Assembly (NCBI GenBank): GCA_021325275.1
Contig: JAJPHL010000032.1
Span: forward strand, 1 to 64,000
From: Terriglobia bacterium
GTDB taxonomy: Bacteria > Acidobacteriota > Terriglobia > JAJPHL01
Length of the DNA: 64,000 nt
Direction: 5' to 3'
Part shown: positions 49,353 through 58,383 of the stretch, piece after piece
Position numbering within the stretch: position 1 is the first letter of the stretch
Layout of the letters: the number at the start of each line of letters is the position of its first letter
Notes under the pieces: model-generated
The model's database searches: none
What the model was told of the DNA's origin: nothing
Seen by the model: the letters and a program-made list of their open reading frames with translations, nothing else
Program-made: the position numbers and the translations under genes

Positions 49353-51215
49353 TTAGAAGTTCACCGCGAACCCACCACGGAAACTCTTGACGTTCTGAAG
49401 CAGGAAGATCCGCCGTCCGTCGGCGGTCGTGAGAGGAATGTAGCCCTGCGAAAGCAGGTTGCGGACTTCGGCCACTGCTTCCACATGACCCATGAACGGA
49501 GTCAGCTGCGGCAGCGGTTGATGGATCACGATGTTGAAGTTGGCGTCGGTTTGACCAATGGAATCCGAGTACGGATCGCGCGGCAAGATCGCCAGGCCGT
49601 CCATCCACTTGTACGACGCGATAATCTTGGTGCCCGTCACCGGCGCCTGTACGCCGAGCTTCGCGGCCAGCGATTGCCGCCGTTCGTTGTGCAGGTTCGC
49701 CGCCAGATTGCTCAGATCGTCGGAGAGATTGGTGCGAACGCCCGGTACCGGCAGCGCCGCCATGCTGTACGACGCTGTTGCTTCCACGTAGTCGCCGATC
49801 TGCCGGCGGACCGCCACGCGCCCGCCGCCCAAATTCTGATAGCCGCCGTTCAGCGTCGCGGTGTTGCTGAAGACGTCGGGAAGCAATTGGCCGTCGCTAA
49901 CGCCGGCGCGGAATTGCGACGGTTGTCCCGCCACGCCGATCGAAAAGTCGCTGATCTGATCGCGGTAGAGCGTCGCCTCGATGGTGGTTTTCTTGTCGAG
50001 CTGCAGGCGATAGGTCGCTTCCACGCGACGATCGCGCTCGATGGCCGGCGATCCAGAGCGCAGCGAAACTTGCGGGAACACGGTGAGCTGATCGGAAACG
50101 GCGCGCAGCGGATCGCCGCCAGCCCCCGGCGCATCAAATGCCAGCGCGTTCAAGGCATTGAAATCTGCCGCCCGCCGCTCCCGTTCCGGCCCTTGACTAT
50201 AGGAAATCTGGAAGAGCGATCTCGGCGTGAGCTTCGCGACGATCTTGCCGTGCGGATTGATGCTCGAGACGTGGCCGAGGAACAAGAGTGAATCGTACGA
50301 CGAACCGTAGACCAAATTGACGTGCTCGGTCAACACGGTGGTCCGTTCGAAATCCGCGGAGCTGGCCATGAACGTGTCGCCGCCGCGGCTGGGAATGGCT
50401 ACGAATCCCGCCGGCAGCACGATTTGGCGAATCGTCACCGAAAGCTGATTGCTCGATCCATCGGGCGCTTCATTGCGCAGGATGCCGCGGAAGGCGCTGG
50501 CCGGCGCGAGAGAGTCGGCGCCGGTGCCGATGTTTCCGCCGAGCAGCAACGTAGTGTCGGCGAAAAGCGTTTGCGCCAGGCTGAAACGCGTGGAGAAATC
50601 GGCGTCCGCGCCAAAGCCTTGCGATCCGCTGCCGCCGGCGGCCATTTCCAGGCGACCGCGGTACGCGTCCGGCCCATCGTCCACCACCGGAATGCGCGCG
50701 AGCGTGGGTGTCGATCCGCTTTGTCCCGGCAAGATTCGCAACACCGGACGCAATCCGCCGGAGGAACGCACTACCCACTTCCAATCGTTATCGGAATCCG
50801 GGTGCGGAGTCTTCGAGATGAGTCCGGTGAGCGTGTCGGTGAGCGAGGAAAGATTGATGCTCAGGAAATTCTGCGATCCGGCCTTCACGCCAATGCTGTC
50901 GCGCACCGCGGGCAGGAAGCTGGCGAGCGACACGCGCAGGCTATAGACGCCCGGCACAAGGCGATCCTGCATGAATGCGCCGACTTCGTTGGTGTACAGC
51001 TTGTGGAGTACGCGCCCGTCGGCGGCCAATACAACGACGAGCGCGCCCATTTGCGGGATTCCCCTGGCGTCGGTGACTTTTCCGGAAATCGAGCCGAGGG
51101 TCGGCTTAGCGGTCGTGGCAGGCGCTTGTGCCGCACGCTGTTGAGGCGGGGCACACCATAAAAGCGCAGCCGGAGCCGCCAGCAAACACCACGCGGCGAT
51201 TACGCGCTTTGTCAT
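49353..51215 (-). CDS. outer-membrane beta-barrel protein with carboxypeptidase-regulatory domain
   Basis: 620 residues: signal peptide (MTKRVIAAWCLLAAPAALLW), one regulatory-like domain (SISGKVTDARGIPQMGALVV), then a barrel of alternating aromatic/hydrophobic strands ending FRGGFAVNF. No plug-domain motif is obvious, so it is a reduced relative of the Oar proteins. 15 nt separate its start from the GWxTD gene stop, so the two are probably one operon, with the GWxTD gene first. Possibly a TonB-independent or structural partner. A TACAGT-like motif near 51235 could be a weak internal promoter. Confidence 0.8.
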   Translation of the reverse strand: MTKRVIAAWCLLAAPAALLWCAPPQQRAAQAPATTAKPTLGSISGKVTDARGIPQMGALVVVLAADGRVLHKLYTNEVGAFMQDRLVPGVYSLRVSLASFLPAVRDSIGVKAGSQNFLSINLSSLTDTLTGLISKTPHPDSDNDWKWVVRSSGGLRPVLRILPGQSGSTPTLARIPVVDDGPDAYRGRLEMAAGGSGSQGFGADADFSTRFSLAQTLFADTTLLLGGNIGTGADSLAPASAFRGILRNEAPDGSSNQLSVTIRQIVLPAGFVAIPSRGGDTFMASSADFERTTVLTEHVNLVYGSSYDSLLFLGHVSSINPHGKIVAKLTPRSLFQISYSQGPERERRAADFNALNALAFDAPGAGGDPLRAVSDQLTVFPQVSLRSGSPAIERDRRVEATYRLQLDKKTTIEATLYRDQISDFSIGVAGQPSQFRAGVSDGQLLPDVFSNTATLNGGYQNLGGGRVAVRRQIGDYVEATASYSMAALPVPGVRTNLSDDLSNLAANLHNERRQSLAAKLGVQAPVTGTKIIASYKWMDGLAILPRDPYSDSIGQTDANFNIVIHQPLPQLTPFMGHVEAVAEVRNLLSQGYIPLTTADGRRIFLLQNVKSFRGGFAVNF

Positions 51216-51230
51216 CGGACCTACTTCTTA

Positions 51231-52982
51231 TTACTGTACCGTAAACGAGGCCGACGGGCTGATGGATTTACCGCCCAACTTGTCCGTCACCTTTACCTGC
51301 AACGTGTACCGCCCAGGCGTCAGGCTTGCCAGCGGCAGGACGTGCTCCAGCGTCATTTGCTGGGGATTCGCGCCCGGAACCTGCTCGGTCGTCTCGGTGG
51401 AGTCCCACACCGGCTTCGACCCCGGAGGATCGCCGGCCTTGGACAACTCATACGTGATCGTGGCATCGGGACGATGCGTCTTTTCGTCCGCTTCCAGGTT
51501 GTAGACCTGGAGGTAAAAGCCGAGGTTGTCGCTCTTCTTGAACACCTCGTTCACGCTGGGGCGGACCTTGGTCGATCCGATCACGAATTGACCCTTGCCG
51601 ACATCCTTGGTCGCCACTTTTTCGATGCGATCGCTCAGGATCAGCGTCGACGTAGCCAGTGTTTCGTCGTCGAAGCCCGGCACCACGATCGCCTTTTCCA
51701 CCGTGCCGACGTTCCCGCTCTGGACATCCTTCAGCACCAAGTTCAAGCGATAGCGTCCCGGACGCAAAGGCATCGCTTGCCAGTAGACGTTCTTGCGTTC
51801 CAGCGTCAGCGGCAGCAGTTCCTGCGGCGTATCGACGGTCACGACTTCCTCGAACGTCTGTGCGACGCGGCGCGTCATGGTGGTGACGCGTCCGAACACG
51901 TTCACGGCGGCGTGTTGCAGACCTTCCTTGTTGGTGAAGGTCATGTCCTTATTAGAGATCTGCACGGTGAGCGCGGCGAGCACCGTATCGTTGGTGATCT
52001 TGATGAAATCGGTGCGAATCTGGAACGGCAGCAAGTTGTAAGTGATCTTGGTATCCACCACTGCTTCCAGATCCTTGAATTTCACCGGCGGAGCTTTTTG
52101 CACCAGCGCCCAGCGCTCCAGACGGTTGAACTCGTTCATGCTCTCGGGCGTCGCGCCGAGCGTGGTGCCCAGGTGCGTGCCGTCGGTGCGGGTGAAGCGG
52201 TCCGTTTTGCTGGCTAGGCCCATCGCTTCGAGATCGGTGAGACCGGCGTTGGGCACGTAGAGCAGGGCGTCTTTCTCCGACGGGTCCATGGTCAGGTGGT
52301 ATTCACCCGACATGGTGGTGTCGACGAACTCGAGGATCACTTCCTGGCCCACGCCCTCGATGTAGCGATAGCGCCACTGCTCGAAAGGATATGTGGAAGT
52401 GGTCCCGCCGCCTTCTTCCTGCGGTCGCGAGTAGCTGCCGCCGGACGGATGCGCGTCAATCTCGTCGGGTGGACCAAACATGATGTAGGTGCGTCCGCGA
52501 TCGGTCTTCCATCCCGGAATGCCCGATGCAAAGTGCTCGTTAGAGTAGGCGATGCGGCGGTAGTGTTCTTCCTTGTATTCGTTTTCGGGCGTGTCCGGCG
52601 TGGGATCGCGGCGGAGCCAGAACTGTTCGATGAAGGCGTCCTTTTCCTCGGCCGTATTCAGGCGCTTCCAGGCGGCTTTTTCTTCATCGGAGATGATGTA
52701 GACGACGTCTTCCTTCAGCCACTTCTCGTAGGGCTTGTCCAATTCCTTCTGGAGAGCCTTGCGTTGCTTCTCTTTTTCCTTGGGCGTGAGGCCGCGCGGC
52801 TGGTCCTTGGGAGGTTGCGACGCGGCGTCTTGCTTTTTCTTGTCGTCGGGCGTGGTTGGCTGTTGCGGCGATTGCAGGGCCGCCACCAAACTGAAACTCA
52901 AACCCATCGTGAAGAACAGGAAAGTGCCGGTGCGCCAAACCGCCGCGCCACGGACCTTGTACATAGAAAGGGCATTCTTCAT
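51231..52982 (-). CDS. GWxTD-domain protein
   Basis: 583 residues with an N-terminal hydrophobic signal/anchor, a low-complexity Lys/Pro/Gln region (40-75), the GWxTD domain (helical part YEKWLKEDVVYIISDEEKAAW, then GWKTDRGRTYIMFGPPDEID with GWKTD at 157-161), and C-terminal beta domains ending with KVTDKLGGKSISPSASFTV. The family is found in Acidobacteria and Bacteroidetes with unknown function. Promoter is a near-consensus TTGACT, 17 nt, TAGAAT. Confidence 0.9.
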   Translation of the reverse strand: MKNALSMYKVRGAAVWRTGTFLFFTMGLSFSLVAALQSPQQPTTPDDKKKQDAASQPPKDQPRGLTPKEKEKQRKALQKELDKPYEKWLKEDVVYIISDEEKAAWKRLNTAEEKDAFIEQFWLRRDPTPDTPENEYKEEHYRRIAYSNEHFASGIPGWKTDRGRTYIMFGPPDEIDAHPSGGSYSRPQEEGGGTTSTYPFEQWRYRYIEGVGQEVILEFVDTTMSGEYHLTMDPSEKDALLYVPNAGLTDLEAMGLASKTDRFTRTDGTHLGTTLGATPESMNEFNRLERWALVQKAPPVKFKDLEAVVDTKITYNLLPFQIRTDFIKITNDTVLAALTVQISNKDMTFTNKEGLQHAAVNVFGRVTTMTRRVAQTFEEVVTVDTPQELLPLTLERKNVYWQAMPLRPGRYRLNLVLKDVQSGNVGTVEKAIVVPGFDDETLATSTLILSDRIEKVATKDVGKGQFVIGSTKVRPSVNEVFKKSDNLGFYLQVYNLEADEKTHRPDATITYELSKAGDPPGSKPVWDSTETTEQVPGANPQQMTLEHVLPLASLTPGRYTLQVKVTDKLGGKSISPSASFTVQ

Positions 52983-53084: not shown

Positions 53085-53125
53085 TGGTTTTGGAAGGGGT
53101 CGACCAGCCAAGGTGGAGGAATGCA

Positions 53126-53208
53126 ACCGCCGATGAACACCGATAAACGCCGATGGCCGACACCGGAGTCTCCGTGCAATCCGCGTTCATCGGCGTTCAT
53201 CGGCGGCT
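53126..53208. repeat. long inverted repeat R12 (GATGAACGCC units)
   Basis: Left arm 53126-53156 and right arm 53181-53208 pair over about 27 nt (ACCGCCGATGAACACCGAT against ATCGGCGTTCATCGGCGG). It lies in the 364-bp divergent spacer between the GWxTD and glycosyltransferase genes; the rest of the spacer holds the two promoters. Confidence 0.85.
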
Positions 53209-53249
53209 GTACTTGCTTTCCCGAATCGGAACGTACCTTGCGTCTTCGA

Positions 53250-53279
53250 TTGACACCGTACCGGAATAGGTATTATCCT
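53250..53279 (+). promoter_or_regulatory. promoter of the NfrB-like glycosyltransferase
   Basis: TTGACA (53250-53255), 18 nt, TATCCT (53274-53279); an overlapping TATTAT is an alternative -10. The leader is about 60 nt. Confidence 0.65.
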
Positions 53280-53346
53280 GCCTGCCATTATGCCCTTTTC
53301 GGTAGTTTCGAAAATAGAACGTAGCTAATCCGTCGGGATTTATTTC

Positions 53347-54849
53347 ATGATATTCGATGCGGCAGTCCGTTTTCTGATCCCGCCGGTGTCCGCGTGGCTT
53401 TTCCTCAGTGGCTGCGACGAACTCATTGTGGACCTCTGGTTCGCTTGGCGGGCGGCGTTCTCGCGGGAGTCGTGGGAGATCTCGATGGAGCGGCTCGACC
53501 ACCTCCCCGAACAGCGTCTGGCGTTGTTCATTCCGTGTTGGCTGGAATCCGAAGTGATCGAACGCATGGTTGAGCATAATTTGGAGATCATCGATTACAA
53601 AAACTACGATGTGCTGCTGGGGGTTTATCCCAATGACGCGTCGACGTTGGCCAAAGCGATGGCCCTTGAGCAGCGTCATGAGCGCGTCCACGTCTCGCTG
53701 TGCCCCGCGCCGGGACCCACCAACAAAGCCGACTGCCTGAACTGGATCTTCCAGCGCATGCGCATCCACGAGCAGATGTCAGGTGAGCGCTTTGACATCG
53801 TGGTCCAGCACGACGCCGAGGACCTGATCCACCCCAAAGCCTTCCGCCTGATCAACGACTTGACCCGCTGTTACGACATGGTGCAAATTCCCGTGCTGCC
53901 GCTCGAAATGCCGGCGCGATTTGTCACGCACGGAACATATTGCGACGAATTTGCGGAATTTCAATTGAAGGATATTTACACCCGCCAGTCGATGGGCGGA
54001 TTCGTGCCGTCGGCGGGCGTGGGCACCGCGTTTCGCCGTGACGCACTGGAGGAAATCGCGCAATCGTACCGGAACCAGATCTACAACGTCTCGACGCTTA
54101 CAGAGGACTACGAGATCGGGTTGAAATTCCATCGCCACGGGAAGAAGCAATTTCTCGTCCGAAAGGCGGTGCCGCCCAAGCGAAATGGGAAGAACGGCAA
54201 CGGAAACGGTCATCATTCGTCCTTCTGGAAACGCTGGTTCGCGTCGGGCAACCGCTACGACGTGGAGTACATCGCCACGCGCGAGTACTTTCCGCACACT
54301 TTCGCGGCGGCGGTTCGCCAGAAATCGCGCTGGGTGATGGGCGTGGCGCTGCAAACGTGGGATCAATTGGGTTGGTCGCAATCTCCGAAGCAGCTTTACT
54401 GGCTGTGGCGCGATCGCAAGGGATTGCTTGGCAATCCCATCACGCTGCTGAGCAATTTGATCTTCCTCTATTGTCTGGCGATGTGGGCGGGCGCGCGCGT
54501 GGGCGCGGGCGAGTGGAATATTGCGTCGGTGTTTCCAGCGGCGGGATGGGTTTGGTGGCTGGTGCCCATCAATTCGTTTTTCATTTTCGAGCGATTGCTG
54601 TATCGCGTCTACGCCGTGAATCGCATGTACGGTCCCAGGCACGCGGCGGGCGTGTTGTGGCGGACACCGGTGGGAAATGTGATCAACTTCGCGTCGACGG
54701 TGTCGGCCTTGGCGCAGTTTTTCCGCGCCAAGCTGCGCCGCGAGGAAATCGCCTGGGCGAAGACGGCGCATGCGTTTCCCACACGCGAGCAGTTGAACGA
54801 ATTTCAGCCGGATAAGCCGGGCGATCAAGCCAAGGGAGCGACGGCGTGA
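53347..54849 (+). CDS. NfrB-like processive glycosyltransferase family 2 protein
   Basis: 500 residues, membrane protein with N-terminal TM, cytoplasmic GT-A domain and TM helices near 375-395, 405-425. Catalytic signatures are DAED (156-159), the TED base (252-254), and QKSRW (325-329), the set seen in processive polysaccharide synthases. Overall resemblance is to the phage-N4 adsorption protein B (NfrB) family. It is shorter than NfrB and lacks the C-terminal c-di-GMP-binding region. It overlaps the BcsB-like gene by 4 nt (GTGA). Confidence 0.85.
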   Translation: MIFDAAVRFLIPPVSAWLFLSGCDELIVDLWFAWRAAFSRESWEISMERLDHLPEQRLALFIPCWLESEVIERMVEHNLEIIDYKNYDVLLGVYPNDASTLAKAMALEQRHERVHVSLCPAPGPTNKADCLNWIFQRMRIHEQMSGERFDIVVQHDAEDLIHPKAFRLINDLTRCYDMVQIPVLPLEMPARFVTHGTYCDEFAEFQLKDIYTRQSMGGFVPSAGVGTAFRRDALEEIAQSYRNQIYNVSTLTEDYEIGLKFHRHGKKQFLVRKAVPPKRNGKNGNGNGHHSSFWKRWFASGNRYDVEYIATREYFPHTFAAAVRQKSRWVMGVALQTWDQLGWSQSPKQLYWLWRDRKGLLGNPITLLSNLIFLYCLAMWAGARVGAGEWNIASVFPAAGWVWWLVPINSFFIFERLLYRVYAVNRMYGPRHAAGVLWRTPVGNVINFASTVSALAQFFRAKLRREEIAWAKTAHAFPTREQLNEFQPDKPGDQAKGATA

Positions 54850-56822
54850 GGAGAGCGCTCCCATTTTTGGTGCTGGTCTTGTTGCTGGTTTTGTTGCTGG
54901 CGGGCCTGGCGTCGGCCGGCACTCTGGAAATTCGCCTCGACCGCGAGCTGCAGCCGGCGCTTGGAAAAAGCGGCGCGCTGGTTCTTCGCGGACCCAACGC
55001 GGTCCAGTGGCTTTCCTTCACGCTGCCGCATGACGCGCTCGTGAAATCGGCGCGCCTCTCGCTGCGTTTGCGCCCGGCCAGCGGACTCCTCGCGGGATCG
55101 AACTTTGCGGTGGCCGTGAATGGCACGCCGGTTCACGCGGTGCGTCTCGACGGCGCGCGAGGCTCGGAGGTATTGGTCGAAGGCGCCATTCCCATCGATG
55201 CGCTCGACGACTACAACCGCCTCGAACTGCGCGCCGAGATGCACGACACGCCCGGATACGGGCAGGGACATTGCGAAAGTCCCACCGATCCCGCGTTGTG
55301 GGTGGCCGTCGACGGAGCGTCGCGACTCACATTTGAGTTGGGCGGATACAAGCACGAACCAAGACCCGAGGATTTCCCGCTGCCGCTGGCCGATCCCCTC
55401 GACTATCGCGTTGCGCACGTGCGTTTCGTGCTGCCCCCGCACGCGACCTCCGCCGACTACGCGCTGGCCGCGCACTTGGCCGGCGCGCTCGGCGAACGGA
55501 TGCAGGGCCGGGCCGTCGATCTACGGGCCGTTGACGTTTTCGATCCGGCTGCTGACGCGAGTCAAGTGCTGATCGGCGCCGCCGCCGCGAGCGTATCGGC
55601 TCCGCTTGACGGCGAAGGCCGCCTGCGACTCGTTGCGAGAGAAAATCGTCCCTACCTTTTGCTCATCGAAGGCAGCGACGCTGCCGCGCGTCAGAAAGCG
55701 GTGAACGTCGCCATTCCCTCAGGACCTCAGAACGGCCGCTTGCGCGGTCTGCTTCCGGAAAACGAATCGTTCACACTGGCGGATCTGGCGCCGATGCTGG
55801 TGCAAGACGCGTCGGGTCCCGGCATCACGGTGCGCGGCGCGGAGCCCGAAGCGATCGTGATTCCGCTGCGTCCCGGTGCGGGCGAGCATTTTGTGCGCGG
55901 CGAGCAGAACGTGCATTTCGAATACGCGTATGGTCCGCAGGTGGACGTGGCCAGTTCGGCGCTGGAAGTCCGCTTGAACGGGAAAACGCTGGCGGGCCGG
56001 CCGTTGGAACGCGCTGCGGGGTCGCCGGCGGAGTCCATCGACGTGCTGTTGCCGGCGGAAGCGATGGGCGCGGAGAATTTTCTGGAGATGCGATTCCATT
56101 TGTATCCGAAAAACGCGGGCGCCTGCAGCGCATCGGGTGGAACGGGTGGCGGCCCCGATGGCGGCGCGGCGCTCTGGGCCACCCTGCTCGACTCCTCCAG
56201 TTTCCATTTGCCGCGCGACTTGTACGCCGATCTCCCGGACTTGTCGCTGCTGCGCGGCGGCGGCGTGCCATTCACCTACGGCCGTACGATTTGGGTGGCG
56301 CCATCATCAAACATGGCGCGCACCGCCACGCTCTTCTTGAACGCGGCGTTTCTCTTGGGCCGCTTGAGCGGAGCCGCTCCTGAAGAAGTACGTTTTGAAT
56401 CGGAGCTCGATGCCGCGATGCGGCACCAATCGCACTTGATTGTGCTGAACGAAGCGCCGGAACTGAAACTCGCCGAAGCGATTTCCCCTTGGAACGCGCA
56501 ACGCGTAGTTCTCTCCGTGTCGGGATCGCCGGACTCCGCCGCGCGCCTGCTCGATCCCACACTGATCGCCAGGCTCTCCGGCGCGGCTACACAAATTGAT
56601 TCGAGCTTGCGCGTGCGCGTAACGCCCGCCGGCGCCACGACGCGCTTCGGCGAGATTCGCTTGAATCGCCGCGTGAAATACTGGGTGATGGATAACGTCG
56701 CGTGGGTGATGCTCGACTCGATCGTGCTTTTGATCGTGGCGATGCAGACCCTGCGCTACATCCGCCGTCACTATTTCCCGCCGTTGCCGGACACGGGCGG
56801 CGACCCGCCCACAGAAGGGTGA
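54846..56822 (+). CDS. BcsB-like periplasmic polysaccharide-synthase partner
   Basis: 658 residues: signal peptide (RRALPFLVLVLLLVLLLAGL), a beta-rich periplasmic region with BcsB-type jelly-roll blocks (FTLPHDALVKSARLSLRL, NRLELRAEM), and a single C-terminal TM helix (WVMLDSIVLLIVAMQTLRYI) as in BcsB, which docks on the synthase. It probably guides the nascent polymer across the periplasm. It overlaps the synthase gene, which argues for a complex of the two. Family assignment is from overall layout and could be loose. Confidence 0.75.
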   Translation: MRRALPFLVLVLLLVLLLAGLASAGTLEIRLDRELQPALGKSGALVLRGPNAVQWLSFTLPHDALVKSARLSLRLRPASGLLAGSNFAVAVNGTPVHAVRLDGARGSEVLVEGAIPIDALDDYNRLELRAEMHDTPGYGQGHCESPTDPALWVAVDGASRLTFELGGYKHEPRPEDFPLPLADPLDYRVAHVRFVLPPHATSADYALAAHLAGALGERMQGRAVDLRAVDVFDPAADASQVLIGAAAASVSAPLDGEGRLRLVARENRPYLLLIEGSDAAARQKAVNVAIPSGPQNGRLRGLLPENESFTLADLAPMLVQDASGPGITVRGAEPEAIVIPLRPGAGEHFVRGEQNVHFEYAYGPQVDVASSALEVRLNGKTLAGRPLERAAGSPAESIDVLLPAEAMGAENFLEMRFHLYPKNAGACSASGGTGGGPDGGAALWATLLDSSSFHLPRDLYADLPDLSLLRGGGVPFTYGRTIWVAPSSNMARTATLFLNAAFLLGRLSGAAPEEVRFESELDAAMRHQSHLIVLNEAPELKLAEAISPWNAQRVVLSVSGSPDSAARLLDPTLIARLSGAATQIDSSLRVRVTPAGATTRFGEIRLNRRVKYWVMDNVAWVMLDSIVLLIVAMQTLRYIRRHYFPPLPDTGGDPPTEG

Positions 56823-56966
56823 ATCAGCCACAGATGAACGCGGATAGGAAATCTGCGGCGCGCGCGTCCGCATGGATTCGGTTCTCAGACTGCCTTGAAT
56901 CTGTGTGAATCTGTGCAATCTGTGGATGTCTTATCGGTGTTGATCTGCGTTCATCTGTGGCTGATC
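56822..56966. repeat. long inverted repeat R13 (CACAGATGAACGC units)
   Basis: Outer arms 56822-56848 and 56941-56966 pair over about 23 nt (ATCAGCCACAGATGAACGC). The central region holds more GAATCTGTG-type units on one side only. Confidence 0.8.
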
Positions 56967-57003: not shown

Positions 57004-58383
57004 ATGAAGAAAGTCCACTTGATTCTTGCGACCATCGCCGGGATGGCGCTGCGTCTTTTCTTCATCGCGAAATTTCCTTACTCCGCCGGTGACACCGAAG
57101 TATACGAAGACCTGGCCCGCAATCTGCTCGACAACGGCGCGTATGGCACGTACTTCGGCGGCTCGTTCATTCCCGTCAACATGCGGATGCCGGGATACCC
57201 GGCGTTCCTCGCGGCGGTCGAATGGCTTCTGGGACCCGGTGAACTCCGCGTAATGGTGGTGCAAGCAGGCATCGACGTGCTGGCATGTCTGGCGATTGCA
57301 TGGTTGGCGGAGAAACTGAATCCCCGCGCGGGTGCGATTGCGCTGTGGCTCGCCGTGCTATGTCCCTTCACCGCGAACTACACGGCCACGCCACTCACCG
57401 AAACGCTGGCGACAGCACTCACGACCGTGTGTCTCTTGATCCTTTGCGCGACCCTCGACACAGACGTGTTGATCCGCGAAAAACTCCGCTGGTTTCTCAG
57501 CGGAATCGCCGCGGGACTTGCCACCATGGTGCGTCCCGAAAGTCCGCTGGTGTTGGCCGCGGCCGGCCTCGCGCTGGCGTGGGCGTGCCGGCGTGAAATT
57601 CTCGGCCGTGCATTTTTTTCCCTTGTCCGCACGGCCCTTTTGATGGGCGCGGGAATGCTGCTGGTCCTGGTGCCATGGGGAATTCGCACCTGGATCGCCA
57701 CGGGATCGTTTGAAATCATTACGAACCCCAACGCCACCATGCCGTGGGAACCGACGTCGCCCGGATGGGACGCGTGGACGCGCACGTGGCTCGTTACGTC
57801 GAAGGAGACGTACGACTTCGCGTTCAAATTCGAGGACGATGAAATCAATCCCAACGATTTACCGCCGTCGGCGTACGACTCCGAAGCGGAGAAGAAAAAA
57901 ACTCTCGAGTTGATCGAGCGCTACAACGAATTGAAACGCGCGCCGCCGAATCTCGACTGGGAATTCGCGAAGCTCGCGCGCGAGCGCGCCGCACGCCATC
58001 CGTTCCGCCAATACGTGGAGATTCCCGTGCTGCGCGCGATCAATTATTGGATGACGCCGCGCATCCAACTGTTGCCGTACCAAGGCAACGTGTTTCCGAT
58101 CGCCTGGATGTATGAAGACGATCCCATCGATTTCTCCGTCACCGTGGGATTCTTCACACTGAACTTGGTCTATCTTTCGCTCGGAATTTACGGCGCGTGG
58201 AAGCTACGAGGGAATTACGCGGTCACGTGCCTGTGGATGTTCATCGTTGTCCGCACGGCGTTCATGACCACACACGGAACCATCGAGCCGCGTTACATGC
58301 TGGTTTGTTTCCCCGCGCTGATCGCGCTGGGGTCGGCCGCGTGCGCGCGCCCAGGTGAGCAAGATACACCACGGAGATCCTGA
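57004..58383 (+). CDS. membrane glycosyltransferase (GT39/PMT-like)
   Basis: 459 residues, about ten TM helices; first loop has the family acidic residue in YSAGDTEVYEDLARNLL and later RMPGYPAFLAAVEWL. Such enzymes transfer sugars from polyprenyl-phosphate donors to lipid or protein. Its position after the NfrB-BcsB pair, separated by R13, suggests a role in modifying or linking the same polymer, but it may be independent. ATG at 57004 starts the first TM. Confidence 0.82.
   Translation: MKKVHLILATIAGMALRLFFIAKFPYSAGDTEVYEDLARNLLDNGAYGTYFGGSFIPVNMRMPGYPAFLAAVEWLLGPGELRVMVVQAGIDVLACLAIAWLAEKLNPRAGAIALWLAVLCPFTANYTATPLTETLATALTTVCLLILCATLDTDVLIREKLRWFLSGIAAGLATMVRPESPLVLAAAGLALAWACRREILGRAFFSLVRTALLMGAGMLLVLVPWGIRTWIATGSFEIITNPNATMPWEPTSPGWDAWTRTWLVTSKETYDFAFKFEDDEINPNDLPPSAYDSEAEKKKTLELIERYNELKRAPPNLDWEFAKLARERAARHPFRQYVEIPVLRAINYWMTPRIQLLPYQGNVFPIAWMYEDDPIDFSVTVGFFTLNLVYLSLGIYGAWKLRGNYAVTCLWMFIVVRTAFMTTHGTIEPRYMLVCFPALIALGSAACARPGEQDTPRRS

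Follow-up and report, generated by a model that had tools for sequence, protein, structure and literature searches.

The acidobacterium JAJPHL01 carries, in the 64,000-nt stretch of DNA that we analysed, a gene for an NfrB-lineage glycosyltransferase (GT) that overlaps a gene for a BcsB-family periplasmic protein (Table 1). With moderate confidence we favour the view that the two form a translationally coupled, c-di-GMP-independent synthase/guide pair in the inner membrane, serving an undescribed secreted glycan. Pairing of NfrB with BcsB as such is not new and has been published in other bacteria; the pair described here is of an already known kind, in an unusual, minimal form that was probably assembled independently. 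Each protein is an intact member of its family, the GT has all the motifs of processive GT2 enzymes, and the 4-nt overlap is accompanied by a good ribosome-binding site, all of which supports the pair. The case is weakened by the lack of a second acidobacterial genome with the pair among those searched, which means that the pair is not conserved in its own right.

Table 1. Features of the GT/BcsB locus (positions in the 64,000-nt stretch)
Feature	Position	Strand	Details and basis
Promoter-like TTGACA-N18-TATCCT upstream of GT	53250–53279	+	suggestive only
NfrB-lineage GT2 synthase	53347–54849	+	ATG start, 500 aa; Pfam, NCBIfam, motifs, structure model
GT stop/BcsB start overlap	54846–54849	+	4 nt, GTGA; sequence
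BcsB-family periplasmic protein	54846–56822	+	GTG start, 658 aa; PF03170, hydrophobic segments, trees
Inverted repeat between BcsB stop and GT39-like gene	56823–56965	.	23-nt arms, 96%
GT39-like gene	57004–58383		PMT_2 30 bits, cut-off 26.1

The glycosyltransferase, the BcsB-family protein and their junction

The GT matches PF13641 (132.8 bits) and PF13632 (93.2 bits), and its score of 454.8 bits against NCBIfam NF011305 (cut-off 409) places it among the NfrB-type GT2 proteins. Scores against the NfrB model PRK11234 (373.7 bits) and against PRK15489 (413.4 bits) fall under the respective full-length cut-offs, that of PRK11234 (1170) being set for the full-length protein. The open stretch of the frame is just 506 aa, so there is no in-frame start further upstream. 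The motifs DAED (residue 156, nt 53812), TED (residue 252, nt 54100) and QKSRW (residue 325, nt 54319) lie in columns that are conserved in an alignment of 73 homologues, corresponding to the DxD, TED and QxxRW motifs of processive GT2 enzymes. Pfam and NCBIfam profile searches found neither MshEN nor PilZ in the protein, and its tail past the homologous core is 18 residues, compared with about 140 in most acidobacterial relatives and 217–263 in most proteobacterial NfrBs. Because of the short tail and the missing MshEN match, the GT is classed on its sequence as an NfrB-lineage glycosyltransferase and not as a c-di-GMP-activated NfrB. A previous sequence-only reading of this DNA had likewise described an NfrB-like protein with processive-synthase signatures and no C-terminal c-di-GMP domain.

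A structure model built with 50 aligned relatives (pLDDT 88, pTM 0.87) had as its top PDB matches the BcsA entries 9b8v_E (E 4.9e-12) and 5ej1_A (8.7e-12), and also matched hyaluronan synthase; the GT is thus predicted to fold like BcsA. Membrane helices are predicted in the C-terminal part, although few overall. Between TED and QxxRW, near the active site, there is a glycine/asparagine-rich insert of about 28 residues (approximately 276–303), modelled with low confidence, which is absent from acidobacterial relatives; proteobacterial NfrBs have a shorter insert of different composition at the same site.

The sequence-only reading also held that the partner is BcsB-like, and named the absence of BcsB-type domains in a profile search as the outcome that would speak against it. 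That search gave 182.1 bits against PF03170 over residues 39–548 (gathering cut-off 21), and the claim stands. A BcsB is expected to comprise two carbohydrate-binding and two flavodoxin-like domains; here the profile covers most of the protein, and the single-sequence model (pLDDT 41) was too low in confidence to use. Among solved structures, those of E. coli BcsB came closest (E 3e-7). As expected of a BcsB, there is a hydrophobic signal or anchor segment at the N-terminus (residues 4–22) and a transmembrane anchor at the C-terminus (618–636), although the protein is shorter than most BcsBs.

At the junction, the overlap that had been noted earlier is present, and a Shine-Dalgarno-like AAGGGAG lies seven bases upstream of the GTG start. 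Both frames are open, with GC3 values of 0.77 and 0.76 as in neighbouring genes; a recent foreign origin of the pair was considered and rejected on this ordinary composition. It could be argued that the genes are merely adjacent, or the remains of a decaying locus, with BcsB left partnerless and the GT making a short glycolipid or something else. The short BcsB, the few predicted membrane helices of the GT, its low-confidence insert near the active site and the single occurrence in the phylum sample would all fit such an account, yet we consider it very unlikely given the open frames, the intact motifs, the 4-nt overlap, the ordinary GC3 and the recurrence of the same combination in other phyla.

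Position 53250, from which the locus had previously been taken to begin, is not a gene start and coincides with the promoter-like site, a type of which the region holds two examples against 1.4 expected by chance. No RNA elements were found in the region with Rfam. Upstream of the pair, divergent genes on the minus strand (49353–52982) encode CarboxypepD_reg-domain and GWxTD-domain proteins. Intergenic inverted repeats at 53124–53209 and 56823–56965 flank the pair and are built from CCGATGAACNCCGAT and CACAGATGAACGCRGAT words, the former with eight matches in the whole 64,000-nt stretch against one expected. A GT39-like gene does follow, as had been reported. However, it begins 181 nt past the BcsB stop and beyond the 23-nt inverted repeat, which argues against one simple operon, and it was not found at the other GT loci retrieved up to that point; because of the gap, the repeat and this absence, it is probably a separate unit.

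Partners within the genome and in other bacteria

The source genome (6.86 Mb, 97.6% complete) encodes one BcsB and one GT of this kind, both in this pair, and no protein over the BcsA cut-off (TIGR03030). Its best BcsA candidate is a 586-aa GT2 without PilZ, beside a Tad-type ATPase. With a single BcsB and no GT2 over the BcsA cut-off, the genome offers BcsB no evident partner other than the NfrB-like GT. Neither GH8 (BcsZ), PilZ nor BcsC genes were found beside the pair, in contrast to a cellulose operon, in which a BcsA with PilZ has BcsZ nearby. Likewise no nfrA or wecB gene adjoins the pair. A genome-wide search that recovered the E. coli control gave no match to NfrA_C (PF13283); this search covers pores of the NfrA type, and a pore of another family would escape it. 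Genes for WecB occur at two loci on other contigs (C2 and C32; the pair is on C31), so that neither the NfrA nor the wecB linkage of the E. coli N4 glycan receptor (NGR) system is seen. Among the genes scanned over approximately 25 kb downstream there was no NfrA- or BcsC-like protein as an outer-membrane exit, although an MlaD-OmpA protein and a TolC-type efflux protein are encoded there.

In the Acidobacteriota, 70 of 299 relatives carry GT homologues, but BcsB was found at none of 89 acidobacterial GT loci (60 and 29 from two retrievals), some of which are cut off at the end of a contig or were retrieved with flanks of just 1.5 kb. BcsB itself is present in 31 of 396 genomes of the phylum sample, in which that of JAJPHL01 is the only short stand-alone frame; the remaining BcsBs are fusion-sized (BcsA-BcsB fusions) or pieces of such frames. 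A class sample of 399 genomes, which overlaps the phylum sample, added four stand-alone BcsBs. Three of these lie beside GH8, two of them also beside a BcsA with PilZ, and thus belong to cellulose operons, while the contig of the fourth (L161) is too short to tell its neighbourhood; an NfrB-type GT was found beside none of the four. A conserved acidobacterial GT-BcsB pair was therefore not found, either at the 89 GT loci or among the BcsBs of the two samples. Nor was a BcsB relative found in viral contigs.

The 60 acidobacterial loci of the first retrieval (L012–L071) hold NfrB-like GTs as orphan genes, most of them C-terminally extended (with MshEN in those tested); in a subset the surroundings recur, with a methionyl-tRNA formyltransferase-like gene among the neighbours. 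Another acidobacterium (G545, L152:5901-11836) has a complete nfrB(MshEN)-nfrA(TPR and NfrA_C) operon with a 4-nt overlap. In a further one (G202, L151:4581-7925), an NfrB-type GT2 is fused to a WecB-type UDP-GlcNAc 2-epimerase (1114 aa; Epimerase_2 339 bits), a connection between the NfrB lineage and the supply of ManNAc.

Outside the phylum, pairings were traced by tblastn of the GT against plasmids, followed by annotated neighbourhoods. The order wecB-bcsB-nfrB-nfrA was found in Pseudomonas (L106), Paraburkholderia (L107) and Nitratireductor (L109); in Variovorax (L108) wecB-bcsB-nfrB is followed by an NfrA_C-domain protein, and in an unannotated Caballeronia locus (L112) BcsB adjoins the GT. 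NfrB occurs without BcsB at L105, L111, L113, L118 and L119. A BcsB homologue has been noted in the nfr cluster of Achromobacter xylosoxidans (Sellner et al., 2021; PMC8669472). In Acinetobacter, the PGR locus described in 2025 has pgrD (a BcsB homologue) beside pgrC (NfrB/BcsA/PgaC-like); disruption of pgrD abolishes the glycan-dependent adsorption of phage StAb3, for which it is needed, and mutation of a wecB homologue confers phage resistance (PMC12507263). Stalk formation in Zetaproteobacteria involves genes for the BcsB-like Sfz1 and for Sfz2, a GT2 with a T2SSE_N domain and a non-BcsA synthase (PMC8250860). The presence of this combination in other phyla supports a functional pairing of the GT with BcsB. 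The expectation of repeated co-occurrence is thus borne out by proteobacterial operons but not within the Acidobacteriota, and the suggestion that such a mixed pairing is unusual does not hold, given the bcsB-nfrB operons of several Proteobacteria.

Descent of the pair

In BcsB trees, the nfr-operon BcsBs form one clade (100/100). They score 30–42 bits against the Pfam BcsB profile, compared with 182 for the JAJPHL01 protein, to which they gave no significant BLASTP match. The JAJPHL01 BcsB grouped with a cyanobacterial BcsB (L073) in a first tree (98/98), and with this and acidobacterial cellulose-operon BcsBs once the latter were added (87/89). Forcing it together with the nfr-operon BcsBs was rejected (AU p=0.023); since its branch is long (1.55–1.81), this is moderate evidence from sequence for a place among the cellulose-type BcsBs. 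The neighbour of cyanobacterial L073, the closest BcsB, was considered as a possible NfrB-type GT and turned out to be a BcsA with PilZ. In its own tree the GT falls outside both the 59 acidobacterial relatives and the 13 proteobacterial NfrBs, and forcing it together with bcsB-linked NfrBs was rejected (AU p=2.8e-12).

One possible reading is that the pair makes a cellulose-like beta-glucan, an NfrB-lineage GT having taken the place of BcsA in a cellulose operon that kept its cellulose-type BcsB. While its tree position among cellulose-type BcsBs is what one would expect in that case, we think this unlikely, as the GT clearly belongs to the NfrB family and not to CelA/BcsA, NfrB is linked to ManNAc, and the BcsZ (GH8), PilZ and BcsC genes are absent beside the pair. 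Alternatively, the pair could be a divergent member of the proteobacterial bcsB-nfrB-nfrA type (NGR/PGR) that has lost nfrA, the wecB linkage and MshEN. The two protein families are the same, their coupling is similarly close and wecB is present elsewhere in the genome, but the gene order is reversed (nfrB-bcsB), no NfrA_C match exists in the genome and the AU tests reject both groupings, so that this, too, appears improbable. The trees and AU tests weaken such a descent, and the JAJPHL01 pair is probably not directly descended from the nfr-operon pairing; an ancient common pairing with later losses may still be compatible with the trees. We tentatively propose, as a possibility short of an even chance, that NfrB-lineage synthases recruited BcsB at least twice independently, once in proteobacterial nfr operons and once in this acidobacterium from the cellulose-type clade, the latter giving a two-gene synthase that works independently of c-di-GMP and makes an undescribed glycan.

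Proposed function and relation to known systems

In cellulose synthase, the GT2 subunit BcsA polymerises and translocates the chain, and BcsB guides it in the periplasm. By analogy, in the synthase/guide pair that we favour, the NfrB-lineage GT2 would polymerise a nucleotide-activated sugar at the cytoplasmic face and thread the growing chain across the inner membrane into the periplasm, where the BcsB-like protein, held by its C-terminal helix, would take it up and guide it. We infer in this way a physical complex, processivity, export and independence of c-di-GMP in vivo. The pair would have no built-in c-di-GMP switch; judging by the missing domain, it may be constitutive or controlled through transcription. 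By comparison with NfrB relatives, the sugar donor could plausibly be UDP-ManNAc, since NGR and PGR depend on WecB and a natural NfrB-WecB fusion exists. The earlier suggestion that the product is an undescribed secreted glycan is likely to be right. If so, the pair would extend the NfrB-BcsB systems to a further phylum and to a pared-down architecture, would suggest that BcsB guides membrane-made glycans in general and is not a subunit specific to cellulose, and would allow the contribution of BcsB to be tested in a minimal system that lacks a c-di-GMP switch.

The closest relatives of the GT are the orphan NfrB-MshEN glycosyltransferases of Bryobacterales and Solibacter relatives (38–50% identity), which mostly have about 600 aa, including a C-terminal extension that was confirmed to contain MshEN in L012, L019 and L067, and, unlike the JAJPHL01 GT, have no adjacent BcsB. 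Sfz1 and Sfz2 similarly combine a BcsB-like protein with a non-BcsA GT2, but Sfz2 has an N-terminal T2SSE_N-type domain and sits in a six-gene cluster (PMC8250860). The BcsA-BcsB cellulose synthase shares the BcsB family and the GT2 fold, whereas the JAJPHL01 GT is not CelA/BcsA, lacks PilZ and has no adjacent GH8 BcsZ. E. coli NfrB of the NGR system belongs to the same GT2 family, with the same motifs, a GT core of matching length and approximately 34% identity; E. coli has MshEN and NfrA with no BcsB in the region viewed, whereas the JAJPHL01 stretch has BcsB and neither of the others. Compared with the proteobacterial wecB-bcsB-nfrB-nfrA operons, including those of Acinetobacter (PGR) and Achromobacter xylosoxidans, the JAJPHL01 pair has the order nfrB-bcsB without MshEN or adjacent wecB or nfrA, and its GT lies outside the proteobacterial NfrB clade. 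Its BcsB belongs to another clade and is only about 20% identical, so that the function of the nfr-operon BcsBs transfers by analogy only. What the two have in common is an NfrB-type GT2 beside a BcsB-family protein and, as a likely product, an undescribed surface glycan.
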